From contig JAUXYA010000005.1 of assembly GCA_030684405.1 (NCBI GenBank), forward strand, positions 124,001-188,000: a DNA stretch of 64,000 nt, read 5' to 3'. The translations under genes and the position numbers were made by a program. Under the pieces are notes generated by a model that was given only the letters and a program-made list of their open reading frames with translations, did no database searches and was not told the DNA's origin. Of this stretch, positions 4,659 to 21,245 are shown one piece after another; position 1 is the stretch's first letter, and the number at the start of each line of letters is the position of its first letter. This DNA is from Burkholderiales bacterium (GTDB lineage Bacteria; Pseudomonadota; Gammaproteobacteria; Burkholderiales; SG8-41).

Positions 4659-7600
4659 TTACTGCACCAACTCACGCCAGCTGGTGCGCCGGCCCTGGGG
4701 GTCGCCCGGCGGGATCGGTGCTTCCTGGGTCTGCTGGGATGCGTCCGAGGTGGTGGCGATGACCACCGTTCTGCCGTCGGGCAGCCGCACCACGTTGATA
4801 CCCACTGCCAGCGAATCCGAGAGCTTGATGCCGAAGTTGGCGGCGCCGGCAATCTGCAGGCCGTTGCGGGCATCGAAGAAGTTGAGCCAGCTATAGCCGC
4901 CGATGTTGCAGGCGTTGTTTTGCGGCACGTTGCTGGCAACCACCAGCGTACCCAGTTGCAGCTTCATGTCGATGTTCACCCGCTCGCCTGTGTCCGGCAG
5001 GTCGGCGAACCAGCCGGCGTTGGTGACGCAGTTCGTGGTGCAGGTGATGCCGCGCGTGGTGCCGGTGTTGGCAATGGTCAGCTGGCTCAGCGCGGAACGC
5101 GGGTTGGCGACCGGATAAGTGCCGGTGTCCTTGATCGCCCACACCGACTGCACCTGGGTCGACGACAGGTCACTGGCACCGATGTACTTGCCGGCTGCGA
5201 CGTAGATGTGAGTTACCGGCGGGCTGCCGAAGTCGGCGATCTCCGGCTTGGTGGAGATAGCCTGCGGGTTGTTCGCGGCGTCGGTGATGGTCGTGATGCG
5301 GATGGCGGCTTGCGAGGCATTCACCTCGAAGCGCCAGACATTGCCGAGCAGGTCGGCGCCGTAGAGGTGCTGGGTGGTGTTGTTCACCGCGGTATCGAGC
5401 ACGAAATTGTTGATCTTGCCGAGCCCGCTCGGCGTGGTCGCGTCGCCGGCACCGGTGGAGATCTTGTAGATGATCGTGCCGGTCAGCGCGTCGAGGACAT
5501 AGAGGTAACCGCGGCCGTCGCCGGCAACCGCGGGCGAGTTGACGTTGTTGTAGCCCGAGGTCACGAATACCACCCAGCGGCCGTCGGCGAGTTTGCTGAT
5601 GGTCGGGTTGCCATAGCTGTAGCCGAGGTGACAATCCGAGGACTGTCCCGCCGGCGTCGCAGCACAGGTGCTGGTGTGCTTGAACTCCCACAGGCCCTTG
5701 GGGTTGGCGGGGTCGGTGATGTCCAGCGCGTAATAACCCTTGCCGCCGGCATTGAGGCCGCCGACGAGAATGGTTTTCCACACCGCGTTCACCGAGTCAT
5801 AGACATCGCCGGCGGTCGGGGTGCCGTCCACGTAGTAGCGCCGCAGGTTGGCGTAGTTGTTGTCGGCGAGACGGTGCAGCTCGGGCAGTACCATCGAGGG
5901 AATGACGGCCCAGCGCTCCTCGCCGCCCAGCGGATCGCTGGTGTTGATGCCGGCATAGAAGGCGTGCAGCATGCCGTCATTGGCGGCCACGTAGACCATC
6001 GGCGTACGTCCGGCATTGGCGGTCTTGAAGGCGGCGTAGCCGGCATCGTTGTATTCGGCAAACGGCGCCTTCACGAACACCGGCTGGGCATTGACGATGT
6101 CACCGAGCACGGCGGTGCGGGTGCGGTACAGTTCCTGTTCGTTGGTTTCGAAGCCCTCGCGGCCGCGGTGGCCGCGGACGAAGTTGACCAGGTTGGCGCC
6201 GGCAGCGAGGCCGCGCTGGTTGACTGTGCCGGAGGAACCGTCGGTCATGTCGGGAAACTGGCTGAGATTGCCGATCTGGGTGGCACCGAAGAAGGCCTGC
6301 TCGGTAAGGTTCAGCCCCGTGCTGGCCACGCCAGTCGGATTGCCGGAGCCATCGCAGGCCTGGGTGTTCCAGGTGAAGTTGGCGAGATTGTTTGCGGCGC
6401 CGGTGCGGAACAACCTGATCACCCGGTTGTCGCAGGCGTTGCCGGTTTTCGCATTGAGCTTGGCCTGTGCCGACCAGATCGGCGTGGTGCCGACATTGCC
6501 GGTGACGAGATCGATTTCCTTGGCTTCCAGTTCGCCGATCCATTCCAAAGTTTTGTAACTCGCGGTGTAGGCGAAGTTGTCGCCGGCCACCGGCTCCAGG
6601 TTACTGGTCGCCGCCGCGGCCGCCGAAGCGACGCGGGCGTTGACGCCGGCCAGCGCGGTCGTCAGCGCATCGACCACGCTGTCCGGATCGGCAGCGCTGA
6701 AAAACTGGCCGCGGCCATTGACTGCGGCATGCCAGAGATCGTCCAGCGTCGTGGGATCGTCAGCGGAGGGTACCGGCCAGTTCAGGGCGCCTGAGCGCAG
6801 CGCCGCGAAGTCGCCGGCACCAGTCTTGTAGTTCGGCACGAAATTCAGCGTGCCTGCGAGCCCGAGGCCCATTGTGAACGTGGTCATATGCTGGTGGCGC
6901 GCGGTGTCGGCTTCGACGCCGGTGCCATTTGCGGGCACGTTGTTGTCAGTGCCGACGTCGGTGCCCAGCGCGCCGATCGAGCCGTTGGGACGCAGGTCGG
7001 TCAGGTAGTAATAGGCCGCGACGTCGGCCAGCGTGCCGGAAGCGCCACCGCTGGTGGAGGTCAGGATTTCCGGGTCTGAAAACTGGGGATTGGGATTCCA
7101 CACTGCACGTGTGCTGGTGGAGCAGCTGGTGATGTAAGTCTGCGAGGTGTTTGTCACGGCCTCAGGTCCCGGCGTCGGGCTGATTGGCGTGACCAGCGTG
7201 GTGGTGACCAGACGAATCCGTGTACGACCTGAAGAACAGTTGAAACGGTCGCGGATTTCCTCGTACTTGTAGCGCCGACTGGACACCGTTTCGAGGGTGC
7301 CGTCGTACAGCGGCCGCGGCGTGATGCTGATGTTGCCGTCATGATTGCCGATCAGCGTATTGTTGAGCTGGCGTCCCGCGTTGCCGTTCCAGTAACCGTC
7401 ACTGGTCAGGATCGAGAAATTTTGCTGGCAGGAGTACTGCATCGGGTCGCCGGTCATGCCGCTGTTGATGCCGTCCTGGATGCCGGCGAAATGCCGTCCC
7501 GCGCGCGACAGCGCTTCGCGCAACGGCGTGCCACCACTCGGGTCCTGGGAATAGAGCTTGTTGAACCAGTCGTTTTTTTGGGTGGCGTTGAAATCGCTGA

Positions 7601-8369
7601 TGGCGAGATAGCGACTGGCCAGCACCGGGCTGCCGGGGTTGATGGTGATGAAGCCGACGCGGTAACCCTCGTTGATGCTGACAAAGGCGCGGCCGGTGGC
7701 GGTTTTCATCAGCAGCATCCGGGTGCGGTAATAGCTGTACCAGTTGGCGAAATTCTGGCGCTCGTCAGTGTTGCCGGGCCCCGAGGTTGCAGTGACCTGG
7801 CGCTTGGTCCAGTTGCCGGTGGTGTGCGGGAAGCCGTCGCTGGAGCTGGGCCAGCAGCCGGTAGTGCTGCTGGTGCTGCTGTCGCTGGGCGTGCCGGCGC
7901 CATTCCAGACGTAGTAATAGGCGGGCTGCGCAGTGTCGGTGCCGATGTTCCAGCTGGTGGTGTTGTCGTAGGCGATGTAGTTGGTGCTGAGGTTGCGCGT
8001 TGACGACGAGGTGTTGAAGCCGTTGTAGCGCGCGGCGGTGAAACTCGCATTCGGAAAATCCGTGCCGTCGGAGTTCTTCGGCGGCACATAAGTGATGCTC
8101 GGGTTGTAATAGACCGTGTTGCAGAAGTGGTTCTTGTAGCCGGTCGTGCCGGTGCGGTTGCGAATGCCGTCCGGCATGAAGCCCCAGGCCATACTGCCCG
8201 AATCGTCCAGCGTGAACAGGATGTTGGGCTTGACCACGGTGGTCGAGCTGCTGGCCAGCGGCACGTTGGCGATGTCGGTCATCGCGGCCTGGGCCGCGGA
8301 GGTGGCCGCGAGGCAGGCGGCCAGGGCAAGGGCGCGCAGGCTGGCGGGCGAGGGTATGCGGGGATTCAT
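4659..8369 (-). CDS. pilY1: Type IV pilus tip adhesin / assembly protein PilY1
   Basis: Large (1236 residues) calcium-dependent adhesin associated with pilus tips. It has an N-terminal signal peptide (to about AAQAA), then a von Willebrand A-like domain with a MIDAS-type DDSGSM motif near residue 57. A long Ser/Thr/Asn-rich region follows. The C-terminal third is a beta-propeller of the PilY1 type (ALDITDPANPKGLWEF, GYLYVLDALTG, LYGADLLGNVWRFEV). The aspartate/asparagine-rich turn before LYGAD is where family members bind calcium. ATG is preceded by GGAGAA. It lies 31 bases after pilX in the minor pilin operon. Confidence 0.93.
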   Translation of the reverse strand: MNPRIPSPASLRALALAACLAATSAAQAAMTDIANVPLASSSTTVVKPNILFTLDDSGSMAWGFMPDGIRNRTGTTGYKNHFCNTVYYNPSITYVPPKNSDGTDFPNASFTAARYNGFNTSSSTRNLSTNYIAYDNTTSWNIGTDTAQPAYYYVWNGAGTPSDSSTSSTTGCWPSSSDGFPHTTGNWTKRQVTATSGPGNTDERQNFANWYSYYRTRMLLMKTATGRAFVSINEGYRVGFITINPGSPVLASRYLAISDFNATQKNDWFNKLYSQDPSGGTPLREALSRAGRHFAGIQDGINSGMTGDPMQYSCQQNFSILTSDGYWNGNAGRQLNNTLIGNHDGNISITPRPLYDGTLETVSSRRYKYEEIRDRFNCSSGRTRIRLVTTTLVTPISPTPGPEAVTNTSQTYITSCSTSTRAVWNPNPQFSDPEILTSTSGGASGTLADVAAYYYLTDLRPNGSIGALGTDVGTDNNVPANGTGVEADTARHQHMTTFTMGLGLAGTLNFVPNYKTGAGDFAALRSGALNWPVPSADDPTTLDDLWHAAVNGRGQFFSAADPDSVVDALTTALAGVNARVASAAAAATSNLEPVAGDNFAYTASYKTLEWIGELEAKEIDLVTGNVGTTPIWSAQAKLNAKTGNACDNRVIRLFRTGAANNLANFTWNTQACDGSGNPTGVASTGLNLTEQAFFGATQIGNLSQFPDMTDGSSGTVNQRGLAAGANLVNFVRGHRGREGFETNEQELYRTRTAVLGDIVNAQPVFVKAPFAEYNDAGYAAFKTANAGRTPMVYVAANDGMLHAFYAGINTSDPLGGEERWAVIPSMVLPELHRLADNNYANLRRYYVDGTPTAGDVYDSVNAVWKTILVGGLNAGGKGYYALDITDPANPKGLWEFKHTSTCAATPAGQSSDCHLGYSYGNPTISKLADGRWVVFVTSGYNNVNSPAVAGDGRGYLYVLDALTGTIIYKISTGAGDATTPSGLGKINNFVLDTAVNNTTQHLYGADLLGNVWRFEVNASQAAIRITTITDAANNPQAISTKPEIADFGSPPVTHIYVAAGKYIGASDLSSTQVQSVWAIKDTGTYPVANPRSALSQLTIANTGTTRGITCTTNCVTNAGWFADLPDTGERVNIDMKLQLGTLVVASNVPQNNACNIGGYSWLNFFDARNGLQIAGAANFGIKLSDSLAVGINVVRLPDGRTVVIATTSDASQQTQEAPIPPGDPQGRRTSWRELVQ

Positions 8370-8400
8370 GATGTTCTCCAGGTGCGGACGTGTGCCACGC

Positions 8401-8958
8401 TCAGTACATGATCGACTGGGTATAGGACACGGTGTTGCGCGGGCCGAGGGCGCGCGAGGTGATGCGATAGTAGAGGAAGGTGGTGCCCGACAGCGGCATG
8501 ATGCCGTAGCTGCCTGCGCCCCGGCCGCTGCTGCCGCCGGCGACGCTCACGGTCAGGCACTGCTGGTTCGGTGCGTTGTGGCCGGCATTGGGCAGGCTGC
8601 ACAGCCGGTGGACCACGAACTGGGTGGTAAATCCGGCGGAATCGGCAGCGGCAGGCATGCTGCCGAGGTTGTCCCAGTCGAAGGTGGTGGCATCAAAACG
8701 TTCGTCCCAGCTGGAGACATAACCCCGGGGCTGGGTGTTGTTGAGCACGCCCGGGCCCTGGGCCATCAGCCAGGTGCGTGCGCCTTCGATGCCGGCGTCG
8801 GATGAGGTGACCGCGCCGCGCTGCATCGCGATGTTGCCGGCGATCAGCACGCCGGTGCCGATCGAGCGCCACAGTGCCACGCCGGCCAGCGACATGGCGA
8901 CCAGCACGATCAGTGCGATGAACAGGACGACGCCGTGTTGTTTGCGGATGGATTTCAT
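8401..8958 (-). CDS. pilX: Type IV pilus minor pilin PilX
   Basis: It has 185 residues. The prepilin-like N-terminus KQHGVVLFIALIVLVAMSLAGV is positively charged, then a peptidase cleavage Gly, then a hydrophobic helix lacking Glu at +5, as is usual for PilX. I chose the ATG at 8958 because GGAG lies about 9 bases upstream; a longer frame to 9009 has no such signal and would run into pilW. PilX joins the tip complex with PilV, PilW, FimT and PilY1, its neighbours in the same order here. Confidence 0.88.
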   Translation of the reverse strand: MKSIRKQHGVVLFIALIVLVAMSLAGVALWRSIGTGVLIAGNIAMQRGAVTSSDAGIEGARTWLMAQGPGVLNNTQPRGYVSSWDERFDATTFDWDNLGSMPAAADSAGFTTQFVVHRLCSLPNAGHNAPNQQCLTVSVAGGSSGRGAGSYGIMPLSGTTFLYYRITSRALGPRNTVSYTQSIMY

Positions 8959-8984
8959 GGGCGAATGCTCCGGGGCTGCTTGGC

Positions 8985-10220
8985 TCAGGGACGGATCTGC
9001 GAACCCCACAGCATGTTGCGCAGGGGGATAACGGTTTCGTAAACGCGGTAACGGTAGTTTTTCCAGTGGTTTGCCGGATCAGCCGGCTTGGTCGCGCTGC
9101 TCGTGCCGTCCAGGTTGGTGATGGCGAACTGCCCGCCCGCCCACGAAGGAACAACTGTGGTGACATGATTGTTGGGCTCGTTCGGTTGAAGCGGATCGGG
9201 TTGGCGCTCGAACTGGCCGGAGCGCACCAGAATGCCGACGCGTACGGCGAGCACATTGGCCCAGAGCGAAACGGGTTCCGTTCCTAGGGTACCCGGATCC
9301 GCTGTTCTCCATGTGTCGACGCGGCCGTTGTTGGCCCCGACGGTGTTCAAATTAAGGCCGTATTCCGCCTGCAGCGAGACGACGTTGTCGGCGACCTCCA
9401 CCGGGTCGTTGGCACCGTCGCCATTGCTGTCCTGGTAGAGCAGGTCGTTGGTCACCTGCAACCTGCCGTTCTGCACGGTCCAGATGTTGCGGCGCGGGCT
9501 GTTACCGAGGTTGAACAGATATCCCGAACTGAACGTTATCGGGGGAGTGGCATTGTTATGGCGTGCGATGCGTGCTTCGGTTGAGGTGCTGCCGTCGGGC
9601 AGGTACACCGTGTAGTTGTAGCTGCCCTGGTTGTGGCGGATGGTCAGCGCATCGGCATCACTGACGTCGGTAATCTCGACGGTCAAGCAGTCCGTCGTTG
9701 GTGTGGTCCTCGCCACCAGCAGGACGTCTCGCGGTGAGATACCGGCGCGGCCACGGGTTTTTTTCGAGGTGTCGGTGGATTCGGTGAACACATAAGCTGC
9801 CGGAAAGGTGCTGCCGCTGCCGCGCAGCACGATCAGCGTGTCGGATGCGGTGCCGACGCCCTGGATGATCTGGATCGGGGTCAGCCGGTAAGTGAACGCG
9901 TTAACCGGGCGTCCGCTGTCAAACGCATTGACCGTACAGCCCATGACCGGGGTGATGCCGGCATCGAAAGCAGCAGAAGAAAAACCGTACCCGGCTTCAC
10001 GGATATCCCGCTCGAGGGTGGTGAGGGCGATGACGCCGGTGACCTGGACATCGCTGCCGGCGGAGGCTGTGCGCTTGCGTTCCTCCGAGGTCGCCAGCAT
10101 CTGGAAAATGACAATGATGCCGATCATGCCGATCAGCACGCCGACCATGATTTCGACGAGGCTGAGCCCGGACTGTCGCGCGTGCGCTGCCGGCTTGCGC
10201 CTGCTAGGTTCAATAAACAT
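8985..10220 (-). CDS. pilW: Type IV pilus minor pilin PilW
   Basis: It has 411 residues. The class III prepilin signature RQSGLSLVEIMVG is followed by a hydrophobic helix and a long, variable beta-rich extracellular domain, standard for PilW. PilD should cleave after the Gly, and Glu+5 is present. The start overlaps the end of pilV by 11 bases, which indicates translational coupling. It is part of the priming/tip complex for pilus assembly. Confidence 0.9.
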   Translation of the reverse strand: MFIEPSRRKPAAHARQSGLSLVEIMVGVLIGMIGIIVIFQMLATSEERKRTASAGSDVQVTGVIALTTLERDIREAGYGFSSAAFDAGITPVMGCTVNAFDSGRPVNAFTYRLTPIQIIQGVGTASDTLIVLRGSGSTFPAAYVFTESTDTSKKTRGRAGISPRDVLLVARTTPTTDCLTVEITDVSDADALTIRHNQGSYNYTVYLPDGSTSTEARIARHNNATPPITFSSGYLFNLGNSPRRNIWTVQNGRLQVTNDLLYQDSNGDGANDPVEVADNVVSLQAEYGLNLNTVGANNGRVDTWRTADPGTLGTEPVSLWANVLAVRVGILVRSGQFERQPDPLQPNEPNNHVTTVVPSWAGGQFAITNLDGTSSATKPADPANHWKNYRYRVYETVIPLRNMLWGSQIRP

Positions 10221-10716
10221 AGGAAATTACCTGGTGGCGGCGTCGGACCGTGTCCTGCGGCGTCTGCCAGCAGACGGTGACCGTGACGCGGTTAAGGTCA
10301 GCCGTGGAGACGGCGATCTGCTGCATGGCGGCGGTGGCACCGAGCAGGCCGGTGCCGGAATCAGTAACCCCGCTGACCCACTGCGTCACCGCGGTATTGG
10401 TGTTATCGGCCTGTCCGCCTGTGAATTCACAGTCGCTGCCGCCGGTGTTGAGCTGGAAATTATTCAGCGACGTAATGACGCTGGCATCGTCGGTGCGGTC
10501 CACGCTCATCCAGATCTGCGAGATGATTTCGCTGGCAAAAGCGGCGGCATCGGCGCGGTTCTTGGCGTCGGCACTGGCCGAGAACGCGGCCGCCTGTATG
10601 CCGACCATGGCGAGGATACCGATCGAGAATATCAGGATGCCGATCAGCGCTTCGAGCAGCATGACGCCCTTCTGCGAGTGCAGGGGTGCGGGAGAATGTT
10701 TGATCAATGTTTTCAT
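10210..10716 (-). CDS. pilV: Type IV pilus modification / minor pilin PilV
   Basis: It has 168 residues. The prepilin motif SQKGVMLLEALIGILIF carries the cleavage Gly and Glu+5, and a small globular domain follows. It overlaps pilW at its 3' end and touches the fimT stop by one base. Its position between fimT and pilW is the conserved order of pseudopilin-like minor pilins. Confidence 0.9.
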   Translation of the reverse strand: MKTLIKHSPAPLHSQKGVMLLEALIGILIFSIGILAMVGIQAAAFSASADAKNRADAAAFASEIISQIWMSVDRTDDASVITSLNNFQLNTGGSDCEFTGGQADNTNTAVTQWVSGVTDSGTGLLGATAAMQQIAVSTADLNRVTVTVCWQTPQDTVRRRHQVISYVY

Positions 10717-11318
10717 CAGCAGGCCCGCGTGTCCTTGGTATCGGTGACCTTGGGGTCGCAGACGCGAATTTGCCCGCCGGGCGACACGTTGATGTTAAGA
10801 CAGCGCAGCGGGCCGCTCGCCGCCGCGCAGGTGCCTGCGGCGGGGTAAGTGAACTGAAAAGACACCGGTTGGCCGATGGCCATGGCACCGAAGCCGGTGA
10901 AAGTTATCCGTCCGTCGTAGGTGGCGTCGGTGCTGGACGACGCGACGATCACACCGGATTCCTCGCGCCCCGAACCTTCGGCGCCAGCCTTGCCTTCGAT
11001 GAAATTGAAGGAATTGGTGCTGGGCACCCACTCACGGACCATCCAGTTGGTGCCGCTGGTCGAGGGCGTGATCGCATTGACCAGGGCTTCGACGGGCAGG
11101 TCATCGGTGAGTACCATTTCCACCCGCGCGTTGCGCTTGACAGCTTCGGCGCGCGCGAGATTGAGGCCGGACGTAACGCCTTCGGAGGTCGCGCGAATGC
11201 GCGCATTGGCGGTGAACGTGGCGTACTGCGGTACGCCCAGTGCCATCAGCAGGGCGAGTACGGCCATGCCGACGATCAGCTCGACCAGGCTGAAACCGCT
11301 GTGGCGCCGGCTCAGCAT
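10716..11318 (-). CDS. fimT: GspH/FimT family minor pilin
   Basis: It has 200 residues. The prepilin motif RRHSGFSLVELIVGMAVLAL is followed by the GspH/FimT pattern (AR...SEGVTSGLNLARAEAVKRN). It initiates the minor pilin complex. Its start overlaps the pilE-type gene by 7 bases and its stop touches pilV. FimT and FimU cannot be separated from sequence alone. Confidence 0.87.
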   Translation of the reverse strand: MLSRRHSGFSLVELIVGMAVLALLMALGVPQYATFTANARIRATSEGVTSGLNLARAEAVKRNARVEMVLTDDLPVEALVNAITPSTSGTNWMVREWVPSTNSFNFIEGKAGAEGSGREESGVIVASSSTDATYDGRITFTGFGAMAIGQPVSFQFTYPAAGTCAAASGPLRCLNINVSPGGQIRVCDPKVTDTKDTRAC

Positions 11319-11746
11319 CCGCCGCCCTTGTTGGTGACCCAGCAGCTCGAGCCCGCGCCGTTCCAGCCGGTGGCGACGCCGGTGGTGGTGCGGGTATTGG
11401 CCTGGTTGACGGTGTAAACGAAACCGTTGACACCCTGAGCTGCCACACCGGTGGCAGTGACCGTGAACGTGGTGGCCGTCAGATTTGAGCAGGCATAGGT
11501 GAAGTAGCGTCCGGTCGGTGGCGGGGCTATGGTGCCTGCCGCGCAGGCGCCGACGTAGGTGCGGTTGTCCTGAAAATATTGTTCCATTTTCACGCGGTGC
11601 TCGGATAGTGTCGCAAAGGCCTCGGTGAGCTTGCTGCGAACAATGTAGTCACCATATTGGGGGACTGCGATCGCCGCAATGATGCCGATGATGGCCACCA
11701 CGACGAGCAGTTCGACCAGGGTGAATCCTCGCGCGAATCGTTTCAT
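11312..11746 (-). CDS. pilE: Type IV pilin PilE-like minor pilin
   Basis: It has 144 residues. The short leader MKRFARG precedes FTLVELLVVVAIIGIIAAIA, the canonical type IVa prepilin cleavage site and N-methylated helix. The globular domain has the sequence class usually annotated PilE (SKLTEAFATLSEHRVKMEQ, YFQDNRTY), with a cysteine pair near the C-terminus (SSCW...GGGC). First gene of the minus-strand operon, with AAGGA before the ATG. It may be a minor pilin here, not the major subunit. Confidence 0.88.
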   Translation of the reverse strand: MKRFARGFTLVELLVVVAIIGIIAAIAVPQYGDYIVRSKLTEAFATLSEHRVKMEQYFQDNRTYVGACAAGTIAPPPTGRYFTYACSNLTATTFTVTATGVAAQGVNGFVYTVNQANTRTTTGVATGWNGAGSSCWVTNKGGGC

Positions 11747-14714: not shown

Positions 14715-15674
14715 ATGAAGTATCTAGTTGGAATTACAGCCGCACTTGCGTTAACAGGCGCGGTATTCCAGGCAAATGCTCAACAGTACCCGTCTAAACC
14801 GGTGCGCATAATTGTTCCCTTTTCTCCTGGCGGTGGGACTGACTTTATTGCGCGATTAGTCGCAGCCAAGCTTTCCTCGAATCTTGGCACTCAATTCATC
14901 GTCGAAAATCGAGCTGGAGCGGGCAGCACAATAGGAACTGAGTTTGCACTCAAATCGCCACCTGACGGATATACGCTGCTGCTCACATCGGGAAGTTATA
15001 CAGTTGCATCTAGCTTATACAAGCTGCGATACGACCCTATCAAAGATATGGCGCCGATCATTCAACCGGATGACGGACCGTTCGTTATGGCTACACACCC
15101 ATCTTTGCCTGCAAAAACGGTAAAACAATTTGTTGCCCTTGCAAAAAGTAATCCCGGCGCAATCAATTTTGCAAGCAGCGGCCAGGGAAGTATTTCGCAT
15201 TTGTCTACCGAGCTATTCTCCATGATTTCCGGAATTCGCTTAACGCATATTCCTTATAAAGGAACGGGGTTGTCCGTGGCAGATACGATTGCTGGACACA
15301 ATCAATTCCTTTTGGCGGCAATTGCGAGTGCTGTTCCGCACGTTAAGTCGGGACGGCTCAGGGCGATTTCTGTTACCTCCGCCCAAAGAAACTCTGCCCT
15401 GTCCGATGTTCCCACTGTGAGAGAGTCAGGCTACGATTACGAAGTCAGCAATTGGCATGGACTAATGGGACCCAGTGGCCTGTCTACCGCAGTGATTGAG
15501 CGTCTAAATAGTGAAATTAACAAGATCGTCAAAGATCCCGAGTTCGCACAGAGAATTGCAACTGACGGGCTTGTGCCTGTAGGTGGAACGCCCGAACGAT
15601 TTCTCAAGCTGCTAAAAGAAGAAATGGCTAATTGGGAAAAAGTTGTCAAGAAGGCTGGAATAAAAATTCAGTAG
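14715..15674 (+). CDS. Bug (TctC-family) periplasmic solute-binding protein
   Basis: It has 319 residues with a signal peptide ending near ANA (residue 22). The ligand loop PFSPGGGTD (D43) and the second conserved loop (PPDGYTLL) are present, then IPYKGTG. GAGGAGG precedes the ATG. Bug proteins bind carboxylates in the periplasm for tripartite tricarboxylate transporters. It lies 64 bases after the TauD gene, probably in the same transcript. No TctA/TctB is present. Confidence 0.93.
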   Translation: MKYLVGITAALALTGAVFQANAQQYPSKPVRIIVPFSPGGGTDFIARLVAAKLSSNLGTQFIVENRAGAGSTIGTEFALKSPPDGYTLLLTSGSYTVASSLYKLRYDPIKDMAPIIQPDDGPFVMATHPSLPAKTVKQFVALAKSNPGAINFASSGQGSISHLSTELFSMISGIRLTHIPYKGTGLSVADTIAGHNQFLLAAIASAVPHVKSGRLRAISVTSAQRNSALSDVPTVRESGYDYEVSNWHGLMGPSGLSTAVIERLNSEINKIVKDPEFAQRIATDGLVPVGGTPERFLKLLKEEMANWEKVVKKAGIKIQ

Positions 15675-15935: not shown

Positions 15936-16958
15936 ATGTCTTTGCTTATCAAATCAAGGATTGTCGTGCATTCACTATTCATATGTTTAGTGATTGCAAT
16001 ATCCGTAGTCTCTTCCAAAGCTATTGCGCAAAATACTGCCAATATCAATACTTACCCGACGAAGCCTGTGCGTATCATCGTGCCGTTTCCGCCGGGGGGC
16101 AGTAACGACATTGTCGGTCGGTTTATTGCAAACAAACTTACCTCGCGTCTTGGTCGACAGTTTGTTGTGGATAACAGGGGGGGCGCTGATTCGGTCATAG
16201 GGACTTCACTTGCATCGACTGCGCAGCCAGACGGCTATACGCTGCTCATTGCCTCTGTGACCTACTCAATGGTACCGGCTACCGGAAAGAAACTCCCTTA
16301 TGACCCAATTAAGTCTTTTGTGCCTGTGGCATCAATAGGCACAGGCCCCAACCTTTTTGCGGTCTGGCCTGGATTACCCGTGCATTCAATAAAAGAACTG
16401 ATTGCCATGTCTAAGGCAAATCCGGGGAAACTGCGTTATGCATCGTCTAGCACTGGCGGGAATCATCATTTTGCTGCCGAATTATTCAAGATCATGGCGG
16501 GTGTGGACATCATGCAAATACCCTACAAAGGCGGTGGCCCCGCAATGGTAGATGTAATGGCAGGGAACGTTGAAATCGCCGTTGCTACTTTGATCTCGGC
16601 AATTCCACATGTGCGTTCGAACAGGCTTCGACCACTAGGAGTCAGTAGTCTAAAGCGCTCATCTATCATGCCGGATGTTCCGACGATCAGCGAAGCGGGG
16701 GTGCCTGGGTACGAAGGTAGCATCTGGTGGGGAATTGTTGGCCCGGCAGGGATACCGGTTGGGATAGTCAACAAGCTAAATGCAGAAGTGGGAGCAATTC
16801 TTCGCGAGCCGGACACCACAAAGTGGCTTGAGGCGCAGGCAGCGGAGCCAACGATTTCCTCACCTGAAGAGTTTCGTAAACATATAAATAGTCAGATTTC
16901 CAAGTGGACTAAGGTGGCCAAGGAGTCCGGAATCGACAAGCTAGTTGCAGCCAATTGA
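15936..16958 (+). CDS. Bug (TctC-family) periplasmic solute-binding protein
   Basis: It has 340 residues with a long signal peptide to about residue 31 (KAIA). The loop PFPPGGSND (D58) deviates from the commoner GGGTD, suggesting a different ligand preference. IPYKGGGPAMVD follows. CAGGAGG lies 12 bases before the ATG. The 261-base gap from the previous Bug gene shows no gene. The UGSC gene begins 88 bases downstream. Confidence 0.92.
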   Translation: MSLLIKSRIVVHSLFICLVIAISVVSSKAIAQNTANINTYPTKPVRIIVPFPPGGSNDIVGRFIANKLTSRLGRQFVVDNRGGADSVIGTSLASTAQPDGYTLLIASVTYSMVPATGKKLPYDPIKSFVPVASIGTGPNLFAVWPGLPVHSIKELIAMSKANPGKLRYASSSTGGNHHFAAELFKIMAGVDIMQIPYKGGGPAMVDVMAGNVEIAVATLISAIPHVRSNRLRPLGVSSLKRSSIMPDVPTISEAGVPGYEGSIWWGIVGPAGIPVGIVNKLNAEVGAILREPDTTKWLEAQAAEPTISSPEEFRKHINSQISKWTKVAKESGIDKLVAAN

Positions 16959-17046: not shown

Positions 17047-18756
17047 ATGTCTAAAGTCGGCGTTGTAAGCCCCGCAGGGCTTGATGCAGTCAAGCGGAGC
17101 GGCAGTGCACCCAGGCTGGGGTCCCTGGAAGGAAAAACAATCGGCGAGGTCTGGAATGGCGTATTCAAGGGTGATCAGACGTTTCCAATTATTCGGAAGC
17201 TGCTGTTAAAAAAATATCCTTCCTTAAAAATCATTCCGTTTACTGAATTTCCGCATAACTCCGGTAGCGATAACCCAAGCCAACAGCGCGAACTGGCCCA
17301 GCGCATAGCAGCAATGGCGAAGGAAAAAGGGTGTGATGCCCTAATTTCTGGCAACGGGGCTTGAGGGGTCTGTGCACCGGCCGCGGCGCGGCCGGCGACA
17401 GAAGCCGAAAAACTCGGCATTCCAAGCGTTGTAGTTACAACGACTGGCTTTTCTCTACTTGCTCGGTTGACTGGCAAAGCAGGTGGTGTGGCTGATCTGA
17501 ATGTTTCCGAGTATCCCGGTCCGTTAGGAATTCACGACACGGCGCAGATTGCCAAAAACATTGAAGGCAAGCTGCTGGACCAGATCATTAATGGATTAAC
17601 GGTCGGTAGCGATACGGCTGAAACGGTGACTGCATCGAGTAACCCGCACGATGTAGTGTTCACCGGAACCGAATCCGAGGTGAGCGACTATTACGAGGCA
17701 AAGGAGTGGAGCGATGGCCTCCCTATAGTTGCGCCAACGATCGAGCGTGTCGAACGGTTCTTGGAGTTTACGGATCGCAAGCCGGATGAAGTGGTGGCTG
17801 TTTTGCAATCTGCTAACTTACAGGCCACACCATGGAACATCGCGGTAAACGGTGTGATGGCTGGATGCAGGCCTGAACACATGCCACTGCTGATTGCTGC
17901 TGTAGAAGCCCTGGGAGAGGAGCGTTGCAATCTCAATAACATTGGTAGCTCATCATCGCTGGTGCCATTTGTCCTGATTAATGGTCCGATCGTCGCGGAG
18001 TTGGGAATCCAGTCGGGGGCGCAGCTGGTGTCGAGGCCCCCGAACCCACCTATTGGCAGAGCAATAGGACTGATCGTGCGGAACATTGCGGGATACCGAC
18101 CAGGCTCCACTTACATGGGTACATTCGGATATCCGCAAGCTTTTGCGCTGGCAGAACATGCTGAAGGAAGTCCTTGGGAACCATTTCACGTTGAGCATGG
18201 CTTTGCCCTCGATGAGAGCACTGTTACAGTGGGAATTACGAGTAACTGGGGCTCGTCTCCCGCACCTTATGACAGGCCGGAAAAAGATGGCGCCTCGACT
18301 ACCTTGGAGATGCTTTCACGGGAGATCGTTAAAAAAACCCGGATTTTCATGTTCCCGGGACGAGGTCCGGACGCAGATACAGCGATGTTGACTGTATTGC
18401 TATCACCTTCCTTGGCACAGAGCCTTGCAGCAGCTGGGTATTCAAAACAGGATGTAAAAAAATATCTGCACGAAAACACGCGAATGACGCTTCGTGAGTT
18501 TGAGTGGTTATGCCGCTACATGAGCATCTCCGGGGCCAGACCGCAAGAGAAGGTGGCCGAGGGCGTTTACCCGAAAGAGTTTGCCGGGGCGCCAGATGAC
18601 ATTATCCAAGTCCTATCCGGGCCGGAAATTTTGCACATTATCGTTTGCGGTGATCCGAACCGAAACAGACTTATGGTCATGGAAGGTGGGCATACGACGC
18701 CAACCACGAAGGCCATCGTTTTGCCAAAAAAATGGGCTGAGTTACGGGGTAAATAA
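17047..18756 (+). CDS. UGSC-family selenoprotein (in-frame UGA = Sec106) fused to a WSDGLP-type domain
   Basis: One reading frame of 569 residues if TGA 17362-17364 is read as selenocysteine. Upstream half: LEGKTIGEVWNG, then CDALISGNGA directly before the UGA. Downstream, without any stop: GVCAPAA, EAEKLGIPSVVVTTTGF and EYPGPLGIHD. This is the layout of UGSC-family proteins, where U-G-S-C follows a D/N-G turn and precedes a LEKRGIP-like helix; here it is U-G-V-C. A SECIS-like hairpin lies immediately 3'. From about residue 200 a second domain begins (EWSDGLPIVAPT, NGVMAGCRPEHMP, GRAIGLIVRN, SPWEPFHVEHG), known as a separate conserved uncharacterised family. The Sec redox role is inferred. 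The alternative is a nonsense-mutated pseudogene, made unlikely by motif and hairpin. Confidence 0.85.
17370..17401 (+). promoter_or_regulatory. Bacterial SECIS-like hairpin
   Basis: Lower stem CTGT (17370-17373) pairs with ACAG (17398-17401). A small internal loop follows, then an 8-base-pair upper stem CCGGCCGC (17377-17384) with GCGGCCGG (17388-17395) and apical loop GGC (17385-17387). The loop begins 20 bases after the UGA and starts with G, inside the known spacing and loop rules for bacterial SECIS elements. The segment is much more GC-rich than its surroundings. Confidence 0.75.
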
Positions 18757-18823
18757 GGATTGGCGGTTTAGCAGCTGGTTTGACATTAATTGGGCGTTTA
18801 ATGTTTCAGCAGGAGACAGGGAA

Positions 18824-19465
18824 ATGAGTGTTGTCCCGTGTTACCGGTACCTGACTGAGGCGGAGGTTCGTTTCCTGAATGCCGCTGTTGAGCGTCTGAT
18901 TCCCAGTGATGAGTCGGGAGCAGGGGCGAAAGAGGCGAATGTCGCTTATTTTATTGATCAGCAACTCGCGGGAAGCTGGGGAGTGCACGGGCGATGCTAC
19001 AGGCAGGGCCCTTGGCGGGAAGGTAAACCGCAGCAAGGATATCAATCCAGGCTGACGCCGCAGGAGATTTATCGAGAGGCGATTAGGGAAATCGATCAGC
19101 ATTGCACTGGTAGGCATGGGAAAGTCTTTGCTCACCTTGGTGCTGATTTGCAGGACGAGATTATCCGGGAACTGGAGGCAGGTACATTTGAATTCCAGTC
19201 CATCCCGTCGAGCCTGTTTTTTGAATTGCTGATACGCAATACTCAGGAAGGCTTTTTTTCCGATCCTATGTATGGGGGAAACAAAGACAAGGTCGGCTGG
19301 AGATTAATCGGCTTTCCGGGCGTGCCTGCTTCCAACTACGATGACCATATCGATGAGCGAAATATTCCGTACAGGGTCGAGCCGGTCAGCATATTGGACA
19401 TTAAAAACGGTTCGGTTGAACTTGACTCACAAGGTTACCCGAAGCATGTACTTTTAAAGAGCTAA
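18824..19465 (+). CDS. Gluconate 2-dehydrogenase subunit 3 family protein
   Basis: It has 213 residues. Start at 18824, preceded by AGGAGA. The fold signature is visible: FLNAAVERLIPSDESGAGA, YFIDQQL, then the C-terminal NTQEGFFSDPMYGGNKDKVGW. Such small subunits accompany GMC flavoprotein dehydrogenases and help maturation or export. The usual twin-arginine leader is not visible. The GMC oxidoreductase starts 16 bases downstream, so the two form an enzyme pair. Confidence 0.88.
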   Translation: MSVVPCYRYLTEAEVRFLNAAVERLIPSDESGAGAKEANVAYFIDQQLAGSWGVHGRCYRQGPWREGKPQQGYQSRLTPQEIYREAIREIDQHCTGRHGKVFAHLGADLQDEIIRELEAGTFEFQSIPSSLFFELLIRNTQEGFFSDPMYGGNKDKVGWRLIGFPGVPASNYDDHIDERNIPYRVEPVSILDIKNGSVELDSQGYPKHVLLKS

Positions 19466-19481
19466 TTGCCGGCTAGTGACT

Positions 19482-21245
19482 ATGGCGTTGATCAAGCAAA
19501 AGAATGTGGATGTCGTAGTTGTTGGCTGTGGCGTGTCCGGTTCGATCCTTTGTATGGAACTCGCTGCGGCAGGATTGCGTGTGGTTAATCTTGAGCGAGG
19601 CCGAATGATTGACGGAATGAGAGAGTTTTCTTCGCCGCATGCATTCGATGAATTCAAATATGAACGACATAGCGACATATTCCAGAATCTGTCTCGGGAA
19701 ACTGTCACTTTCCGCAATTCAAGTAGTGATGCCGCATTGCCTATGCGGGAGATGGGCTCATTCAAACTCGGCGAAGTTGTCGGAGGCACGGCGTTGCATT
19801 GGGGAACGCACTCGAGAAGATTTCTTCCTTGGGACTTCGAGTCTTTAAGCAAAACCATTGAACGATATGGGCCTGACGCACTTCCACAAGATTGCAGTAT
19901 GCAGGACTGGGGAATAACCTACGAAGAGTTGGAGCCTTACTACGATCAGTTTGAACATCTCTATGGCGTTGGTGGAAAAGCGGGAAATCTGAACGGAGAG
20001 ATCCGGCCAGGCGGGAATCCATTTGAGGGCGCGCGTTCGCGGGAATACCCGAATCCGCCTGCGCCGATGACTTATGCGGGCTCAATCTTCGCTGAGGCTA
20101 CGCGCAAGTTTGGATATACACCCCACGTCAATCCAGTTGCGTCAATGACGGAGTCTTATGTCAATCCCTACCGCCTGATGTTGGGTAAATGTATGCGCGG
20201 TGGATTTTGTTCCAGTCACGGCTGCGCGAACGGTGCAAAAGCGAACCCACTGACGGCAGTGATGCCAGTGCTGTCCAAACACAAAAACTACGAGTTAAGG
20301 CCGCTTTGCAATGTCATAAGAATCAACCTTGATTCGAGCGGTAAGTGTGCGACAGGCGTTAATTACATTGATGCCCGTGGACGGGAGGTTGAGCAACCGG
20401 CCGATCTCGTAATACTTGCCTCATACACGTTTAACAACACGCGTCTGTTGCTTTTATCCGGTATTGGCAAGCCCTATGATCCGATTGCGAACACCGGAGT
20501 GATTGGCAAGAACTACTCTTACCAGACCGGTGGCAAAGTTACTCTGTTCTTTGAGGACAAGGTTTTCAATCCCTTCATGGGTGGTGGCGCTAGAGGCGTC
20601 TCGATTGACGATTTTAACGGCGACAATTTTGACCATTCAGGGCTTGGTTTTGTTGGCGGTGCATATGTGGCAGTTTCCAGCAGCGGCGCGCCGCCGATTA
20701 AAAATACCCCTGTGCCTCCGGGAACGCCAGGTTGGGGTCTGGAGTGGAAGCGGGCGGTTTCAAAGTATTACAACCGAAATTTTTCAATCAGAGTAACTGG
20801 TGGGTGTCAAAGTCACCGTGGAAACTATCTCGATCTAGATCCAACCTATAAGGATGCAAATGGACTTCCGCTTTTAAGGATGACGTTTGACTGGACGGAA
20901 AATGAGCGGCGTATGTCCTCATGGATTAGTGAGAAAGCTTTAGACATTGCGCGCGAAATAGGGGCGTCAAAGTTAAGTGCTTCACCCACCCGAGGCCATT
21001 ACAGCATTGTTCCATATCAGAGTACGCATAATGTCGGAGGAGTAATCATGGGTGCAGACTCCATGACGAGCGCCGTCAATAAATATCTCCAGTCATGGGA
21101 TGTATCCAATCTTTTCGTAGTGGGGGGTAGTGCGTTTCCGCAAAATAGCGCCAACCCTCCAACCAATACGATTGGCGCACTTGCATGCTGGGTTGCAGAT
21201 GCGATTAAGGACCAATATCTGAGGAGGCCGGGGCCGTTGGTCTGA
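19482..21245 (+). CDS. GMC-family FAD-dependent oxidoreductase (large subunit)
   Basis: It has 587 residues from the ATG at 19482; a GTG two codons earlier is possible. The N-terminal FAD fold VVVGCGVSGSILCMELAAAG and ERGR are followed by GGTALHWGTHSRR. The C-terminal GMC signature has STHNVGG (catalytic His) and NPPTNTIGALA (catalytic Asn). It resembles the flavoprotein subunits of gluconate, sorbitol or 2-keto-gluconate dehydrogenases. Together with the upstream small subunit it should oxidise an alcohol or sugar acid. The cytochrome c subunit usual for these complexes is absent. Confidence 0.9.
   Translation: MALIKQKNVDVVVVGCGVSGSILCMELAAAGLRVVNLERGRMIDGMREFSSPHAFDEFKYERHSDIFQNLSRETVTFRNSSSDAALPMREMGSFKLGEVVGGTALHWGTHSRRFLPWDFESLSKTIERYGPDALPQDCSMQDWGITYEELEPYYDQFEHLYGVGGKAGNLNGEIRPGGNPFEGARSREYPNPPAPMTYAGSIFAEATRKFGYTPHVNPVASMTESYVNPYRLMLGKCMRGGFCSSHGCANGAKANPLTAVMPVLSKHKNYELRPLCNVIRINLDSSGKCATGVNYIDARGREVEQPADLVILASYTFNNTRLLLLSGIGKPYDPIANTGVIGKNYSYQTGGKVTLFFEDKVFNPFMGGGARGVSIDDFNGDNFDHSGLGFVGGAYVAVSSSGAPPIKNTPVPPGTPGWGLEWKRAVSKYYNRNFSIRVTGGCQSHRGNYLDLDPTYKDANGLPLLRMTFDWTENERRMSSWISEKALDIAREIGASKLSASPTRGHYSIVPYQSTHNVGGVIMGADSMTSAVNKYLQSWDVSNLFVVGGSAFPQNSANPPTNTIGALACWVADAIKDQYLRRPGPLV

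Follow-up and report, generated by a model that had tools for sequence, protein, structure and literature searches.

The UGSC family was described in 2008 in an ocean metagenome paper, which counted 255 Sec-containing and 21 Cys-containing members in its samples (PMC2398784). The first-pass annotation of the gene treated here agrees with the accessible text of this source (PMC2398784) in presenting the family as one known from metagenomes in Sec or Cys forms. According to the same text, UGSC proteins rank with the more abundant selenoprotein families of aquatic metagenomes, are abundant in non-marine samples as well, and occur with the UGSC domain fused to a domain named 'Unknown_1' (PMC2398784). 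A 2026 review, in its available part, groups UGSC with selenoproteins of largely uncharacterised function (PMC13188914).

The Sec-bearing proteins GrdB and PrdB belong to the glycine, betaine, sarcosine and D-proline reductases (PF07355, TIGR01917, TIGR01918 and TIGR04483). In the glycine reductase reaction, protein B uses its Sec to attack the carbon bearing the leaving group. For fluoroacetate reductase, the available part of the published description proposes that the Sec of a GrdB relative attacks the leaving-group carbon, leading to carbon-heteroatom cleavage (PMC10838667).

The gene analysed here probably encodes a 569-residue selenoprotein in which a UGSC domain (Sec106, U-G-V-C) is fused to a C-terminal domain, with SECIS-dependent decoding and possibly bond-cleaving chemistry of the GrdB/PrdB type. 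Since both the family and the fusion to a second domain were printed in 2008, the gene adds a member to a known family. It shares with the UGSC family, as set out in the accessible text of PMC2398784, the UGSC domain, the U-x-x-C motif, the predominance of Sec with rare Cys and the fusion to a second domain. It differs in having U-G-V-C instead of U-G-S-C, in its long fused form and in the many paralogs per genome found in its lineage. With GrdB and PrdB it shares Sec at the aligned position, and the PrdB in the accessible text of PMC2398784 is also listed with U-x-x-C. Unlike these proteins, the UGSC gene lies in a genome in which no GrdA or GrdE/PrdA-type partner was found, carries a different fused domain and has no PF07355 match. 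FarB of Cloacibacillus porcorum MFA1, compared by the available description alone (PMC10838667), is likewise a GrdB-related Sec protein among several paralogs and is likewise proposed to attack a carbon-heteroatom bond via Sec. In contrast to the UGSC protein, it belongs to the GrdB family proper, has a GrdE-like partner and comes from an anaerobically grown host (PMC10838667). Beyond family membership, the relation to GrdB/PrdB and the radiation of paralogs are noteworthy; in the open-licence text and the paper titles covered by the literature searches, no statement of the former and no report of the latter were found.

The UGSC gene and the decoding of its UGA

Positions refer to the window, i.e. 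the whole stretch of 64,000 nucleotides that was analysed (C35:124001-188000), in a draft genome of 3.74 Mb that is 99.4% complete. The features are as follows:

14715-15674, forward strand: TctC solute receptor, upstream neighbour (Pfam match)
15936-16958, forward strand: TctC solute receptor directly 5' of the UGSC gene (Pfam match)
17047-18756, forward strand: gene of the UGSC-domain protein, almost certainly a selenoprotein; 569 aa, Sec106, stop TAA
17062-17601, forward strand: UGSC domain, residues 6-185, very probably related to the Sec-bearing part of GrdB/PrdB; AlphaFold2 domain model with pLDDT 94.2
17362-17364, forward strand: in-frame TGA, codon 106, read as selenocysteine on the basis of the homologue alignment and sel genes
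17369-17402, forward strand: SECIS-like hairpin, from folding, recoding test and covariation
17371-17373, forward strand: codon of C109, the partner of Sec in U-G-V-C, invariant in 27 aligned sequences
17641-18753, forward strand: C-terminal domain without a family in Pfam or NCBIfam
18806-19465, forward strand: gluconate 2-dehydrogenase subunit 3-like protein, downstream neighbour
19476-21245, forward strand: GMC-family FAD oxidoreductase, downstream neighbour

The frame runs from ATG 17047 to TAA 18754-18756 over 569 codons, and its sole internal stop is TGA 17362-17364 (residue 106). The first-pass annotation had described a single frame broken only by this TGA and followed by 463 open codons; the same frame was recovered from the sequence and 463 codons were counted. 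It had also placed an internal ATG at 17467, where the bases actually read TTG; gene callers would list a downstream ORF beginning at this TTG. The residues around Sec106 are ISGNGA-U-GVC-APAAARPATEAEKLGIPSVVV. The genes follow one another in the window as two TctC genes, the UGSC gene, the gluconate-dehydrogenase-subunit-3-like gene, the GMC oxidoreductase gene and that of a TauD dioxygenase. A second TauD lies upstream, and the neighbourhood looks like a catabolic cluster. An Rfam search of the window gave nothing beyond one tRNA. At 4659-11746 on the reverse strand, a run of genes resembles type IV pilus minor pilins together with a PilY1-like protein, as judged by eye from the ORF list.

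The assignment to the UGSC family made at first reading is borne out by the match to the Pfam UGSC model PF24696 over residues 6-185 (77.1 bits, cut-off 25). The match to the NCBIfam equivalog NF041046 stays below threshold (47.4 bits, cut-off 125), which places the gene in a diverged branch of the family. The protein has matches in 75 of 120 genomes, its own among them. The closest named matches are mostly titled Betaproteobacteria or Burkholderiales, and the weaker ones include Chloroflexi, Actinobacteria and others. Of 110 homologous segments, 105 have U at the aligned site, 2 have C and 3 have a gap; the segments include duplicate copies of some records and comprise 88 distinct Sec sites. 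The alignment of homologues thus gave Sec or rarely Cys at the site and no other residue, and the frame is without decay. In 27 aligned sequences, the U/C-x-x-C motif is present, and both residue 106, with Sec written as Cys, and residue 109 are invariant. Two distant members from records titled Dehalococcoidia and Gammaproteobacteria (L112:760-804 and L116:5757-5801) have U-S-T-C in place of U-G-x-C. Per-site differences from nine chosen relatives amount to 0.71-0.87 for synonymous sites and, for non-synonymous sites, to 0.12-0.36 in the part preceding the TGA and 0.16-0.35 in the part following it; the likeness of the latter two ranges indicates similar constraint on the second part of the frame.

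The genome holds the genes for Sec decoding. SelB (434 bits, NCBIfam cut-off 242) and SelA (585 bits, cut-off 268) are encoded at 63-67 kb on the contig of the window. The tRNA-Sec lies at 50 kb on the same contig (75.9 bits, cut-off 47), and ARAGORN also reports it as tRNA-SeC with anticodon TCA. SelD exceeds its NCBIfam cut-off on contig C21. The search for sel genes that the first-pass annotation had called for has therefore returned SelA, SelB and SelD over their cut-offs together with tRNA-Sec (TCA). The SelD match itself (C21:4962-5891, L016) has an in-frame TGA and is for this reason probably a selenoprotein too. Across genomes, SelA exceeds its cut-off in 68 of the 75 with a match to the protein vs 12 of the 45 without one (one-sided Fisher 5e-13, with kinship and incomplete drafts uncorrected). 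At least 12 genomes have selA and a match to the protein in divergent orientation, about 210-300 bases apart; these selA-adjacent matches are paralogs of 34-37% identity, distinct from the window's own gene.

Bacterial SECIS elements follow the rule of a hairpin downstream of the UGA with a G in the apical loop. The mRNA 3' of the TGA folds as CCGGCCGC-GGC-GCGGCCGG, with a core stem at 17377-17384/17388-17395, the loop GGC at 17385-17387 and an outer stem UCUGU/ACAGA at 17369-17373/17398-17402; the loop GGC agrees with the rule. When compared with synonymous recodings based on the gene's own codon usage, the hairpin has z -3.28 in this gene. In the first 60 of the 88 sites, which were used for this test, the mean z is -1.77, and 25 of 60 hairpins reach p<0.05 individually; 341 control windows of the same genes have a mean z of -0.19, with 28 below -1.64. 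Covariation was followed in 74 of the 88 hairpins (35 in subset A4 and 39 in subset A5), 14 being omitted by eye as having another register, being unclear or being near-duplicates. A4 comprises 35 rows, of which 33 are distinct; 20 of these have G-C at pair 22/28 and 13 have U-A, without any intermediate form, although the U-A form occurs mostly within one clade and may therefore reflect few events. In this subset 98.1% of cells pair, vs at most 57.2% with the partner slid. In A5 (39 rows), four pairs are changed on both sides, and 93.9% of cells pair vs at most 51.9% with the partner slid. The covariation score of A4 was reached by 0 of 500 shuffles; the number of double-change pairs was reached by all 500 and is uninformative. 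There is good evidence from the nucleotide sequences that the hairpin is a SECIS.

The UGA might also be a true stop, lying between two separate genes or within a decayed one. The standard code does list two ORFs here, and TTG 17467 could start the second. Such a reading conflicts with the similar constraint on both sides of the TGA in comparison with the nine relatives, the conservation of TGA at the site across many genomes, the compensatory changes in the hairpin and the full sel machinery of the genome. The stop or pseudogene explanation was rejected on account of the constraint after the TGA and the recurrence of TGA, and is considered highly improbable. Decoding of the UGA as another amino acid, through near-cognate readthrough or reassignment, is less probable still. 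No support for it was found, and it is opposed by the tRNA-Sec with anticodon TCA, by Cys being the only alternative residue among the 107 ungapped segments, and by the use of TGA as a terminal stop in the genome, e.g. in both PrdB-like genes described below. Residue 106 is almost certainly Sec, as far as sequence data can indicate. The UGA would be decoded by SelB and Sec-tRNA(Sec) under the guidance of the hairpin a few bases 3', as sequence and covariation suggest; the original proposal of Sec106 read with SelB has gained support from the sel machinery, the site alignment, the hairpin and the constraint. Annotation with the standard code would cut every such gene at its UGA.

Probable relation of the UGSC domain to GrdB and PrdB

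A distant relationship very probably links the UGSC domain to the Sec-bearing part of GrdB/PrdB, with Sec aligned on Sec. In the NCBIfam scan, the domain of the window gave weak matches over the Sec stretch to PrdB, GrdH, GrdF, GrdB and the joint family (E 0.007 to 0.1), along with the unrelated glycolaldehyde reductase model (0.013). When 58 UGSC domains were scanned at E<=1, the GrdB model TIGR01917 was matched by 27, PrdB by 23, GrdF by 18, GrdH by 15 and the joint model by 15, with a best E of 1.9e-5; the next family was matched by just 4 members. In hhalign, UGSC compared with two PrdB-like proteins and a Cys relative gave E 2.9e-6 for the whole protein and 2.6e-6 for the domain (probability 88.7%; 88-89% over both comparisons), with Sec placed on Sec. 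The GrdB-family protein of the relative G021 gave E 1.8e-6 (probability 89.8%, 32% identity over 59 columns), and controls with TctC and TauD gave 0.25, 0.44, 0.51 and 0.76. The aligned stretch is short in these comparisons (59 to 94 columns).

A search of 1545 sequences with the UGSC profile ranked the downstream piece of the window gene first and GrdB second (E 2.3e-5), followed by the PrdB-like pair (0.051 and 0.07) and an unrelated window ORF (0.077). The best of 1000 shuffled GrdB copies reached 0.31. The link to GrdB is thus clear in the profile run, and that to the PrdB-like proteins, which score no better there than a background ORF, is suggested only by hhalign and the model scans.

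In the host genome, PF07355 matched two other loci and not the UGSC gene. Both in GrdB and in the PrdB-like proteins, the Sec lies a few residues beyond the end of this model, which therefore could not reach the related stretch of UGSC. In the Pfam scan of the 58 UGSC domains, 25 of 41 families were listed, and none of these is a GrdB family. Searches of the host genome with PF04723 and PF09338 for GrdA and GrdE/PrdA-type partners gave 0 matches; with neither subunit found, the cycle of glycine reductase cannot operate here in its standard form.

The host genome has two PrdB-like genes on C27 and C35 (L131:718-1953, reverse strand, and L135:1234-2466, forward strand) with an in-frame TGA in U-P-x-C. 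Both exceed the cut-off of PF07355, have PrdB as the best NCBIfam model under its cut-off and end with TGA as the terminal stop. They are likely to be further selenoproteins. In G021, a cluster on C148 (L236) contains GrdA with a TGA, a GrdB-family gene with UGTC, a GrdE-type gene and, as recognised by eye, an ORF resembling FAD proteins. Its GrdB-family protein scores 419 bits against TIGR01918 (cut-off 65), and the cluster resembles glycine/sarcosine reductase.

Structure and proposed chemistry

AlphaFold2 models, built with Cys for Sec, have pLDDT 89.6 and pTM 0.91 for the full-length protein and pLDDT 94.2 and pTM 0.89 for the UGSC domain, in which strands alternate with helices. Foldseek found no match to the full model at E<=0.001 and 6 matches to the domain model, all with low TM. 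The 50 PDB matches listed for the domain model are mixed alpha/beta folds (TesA thioesterase, MurG, FtsZ, azoreductases and some barrels). Among solved structures searched by sequence, the full protein had one weak match (3das, E 0.028) and the UGSC profile a best value of 0.086; no match was found with a PrdB-like protein as query. A hydantoin racemase among the weak structure matches raised the idea of an Asp/Glu-racemase-like origin of the UGSC domain, which was set aside at a TM to query of 0.33.

The UGSC domain is called likely thioredoxin-like in the accessible text of PMC2398784, and the model places U-x-x-C at the start of a helix following a strand, which would locally be as in thioredoxins. 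The domain as a whole, in contrast, is modelled as alternating strands and helices, and no thioredoxin is among the 50 PDB matches listed, in all of which TM to query is at most 0.46. The sequence profiles favour GrdB/PrdB, and dozens of diverged paralogs, many of them adjoining solute receptors, better suit substrate-specific enzymes. A thioredoxin-like nature of the domain is rather unlikely, and kinship with GrdB/PrdB is preferred.

The C-terminal domain gave only scattered weak matches when 27 members were compared with NCBIfam. It has a nearly invariant Cys at 274 and is found elsewhere as a separate gene, some copies adjoining separate UGSC genes. It is perhaps the 'Unknown_1' of PMC2398784, judging from the accessible text. 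Its identification as a GrdE/PrdA-type subunit was rejected after its profile had been compared with a relative's GrdE-type protein (E 0.23).

The tie to GrdB/PrdB gives the UGSC Sec domain a concrete, testable chemistry. By analogy, in what is the likeliest reading, the selenolate of Sec106 would attack the activated carbon of a small imported organic acid and split off a leaving group, and C109 of U-x-x-C might act as the resolving thiol for the intermediate. Substrate binding would fall to the C-terminal domain, which is the best candidate for this role, and the TctC receptors could deliver the substrate. Since no GrdA or GrdE/PrdA-type subunit was found, the product would bypass the acetyl-phosphate route. 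That the reaction type is reductive carbon-heteroatom cleavage is a plausible analogy, with chances slightly short of even. The first-pass annotation had placed U at a redox position; its U-G-V-C motif stands, and 'redox' is an interpretation in whose place the GrdB/PrdB relation suggests a nucleophilic Sec and not one of the thioredoxin type.

Expansion of UGSC paralogs and their association with TctC

The host genome has five UGSC-family matches, namely this gene and four others with one TGA each. In 12 genomes picked for completeness, PF24696 has 5 to 35 matches each and 189 in all; among the 150 of these that were listed, 149 have one TGA and one has no stop. G021, a draft assembled into about 330 contigs (completeness 98%, contamination 2%), has 58 PF24696 matches, of which 51 contain a single TGA only, 3 a TGA plus another stop and 4 no stop. 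When the regions are taken, U in U-G-x-C is found in 53 of 59 segments. Two of these 53 (on C307 and C45) also carry another stop, leaving 51 UGSC domains with TGA at the site and free of other stops; given the draft status, the count of 53 needs a closed genome. No two of the 59 segments share more than 90% identity, the median to the nearest being 62%, which indicates paralogs and not strain duplicates.

TctC places in G021 number 121 in 444 kb near UGSC genes vs 23 in 210 kb elsewhere, i.e. they are 2.5 times denser, in a comparison limited to this one genome and, for the part elsewhere, to 20 stretches, each taken from the beginning of a contig for which no UGSC match was listed. For TauD-like places, the counts are 10 near UGSC genes and 0 elsewhere. 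In single-linkage clustering of ORFs from 92 loci surrounding a UGSC or second-domain gene, the window's two TctC genes fall into the largest cluster (210 ORFs in 75 loci); neighbour clusters besides TctC and TauD were recognised by eye only. In the 20 stretches away from UGSC genes (L214-L233), TctC places occur at 0.11 per kb, which by extrapolation corresponds to several hundred in G021.

The lineage might have turned the GrdB/PrdB-type Sec domain into a large arsenal of selenoenzymes, each specific for its substrate, for cleaving the carbon-heteroatom bonds of organic acids from the environment, often in partnership with TctC and without GrdA; this is a tentative idea, with the odds somewhat against it. 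A worm symbiont (Olavius) is very selenoprotein-rich. The largest prokaryotic selenoproteome named in the accessible text of a 2022 review comprises 39 genes (PMC9312934; also PMC5029168). If the idea of an arsenal is true, the largest prokaryotic selenoproteomes known would be those of some members (53 UGSC domains with TGA at the Sec site in one draft genome), 'largest' being meant only against the accessible text of PMC9312934 and PMC5029168. The paralog counts suggest that some betaproteobacteria can be very selenoprotein-rich, beyond the anaerobes named in the reviews as far as their text is available.

Some of the G021 paralogs depart from the Sec form. L212:4998-5534 and L213:4998-5465 are without TGA and have the Cys motif ALCNAG in place of U-G-x-C. 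Another copy (L210, G021:C7:46801-47299) is split over frames, contains a TAG and has UESC at the site; it is apparently a decayed paralog.
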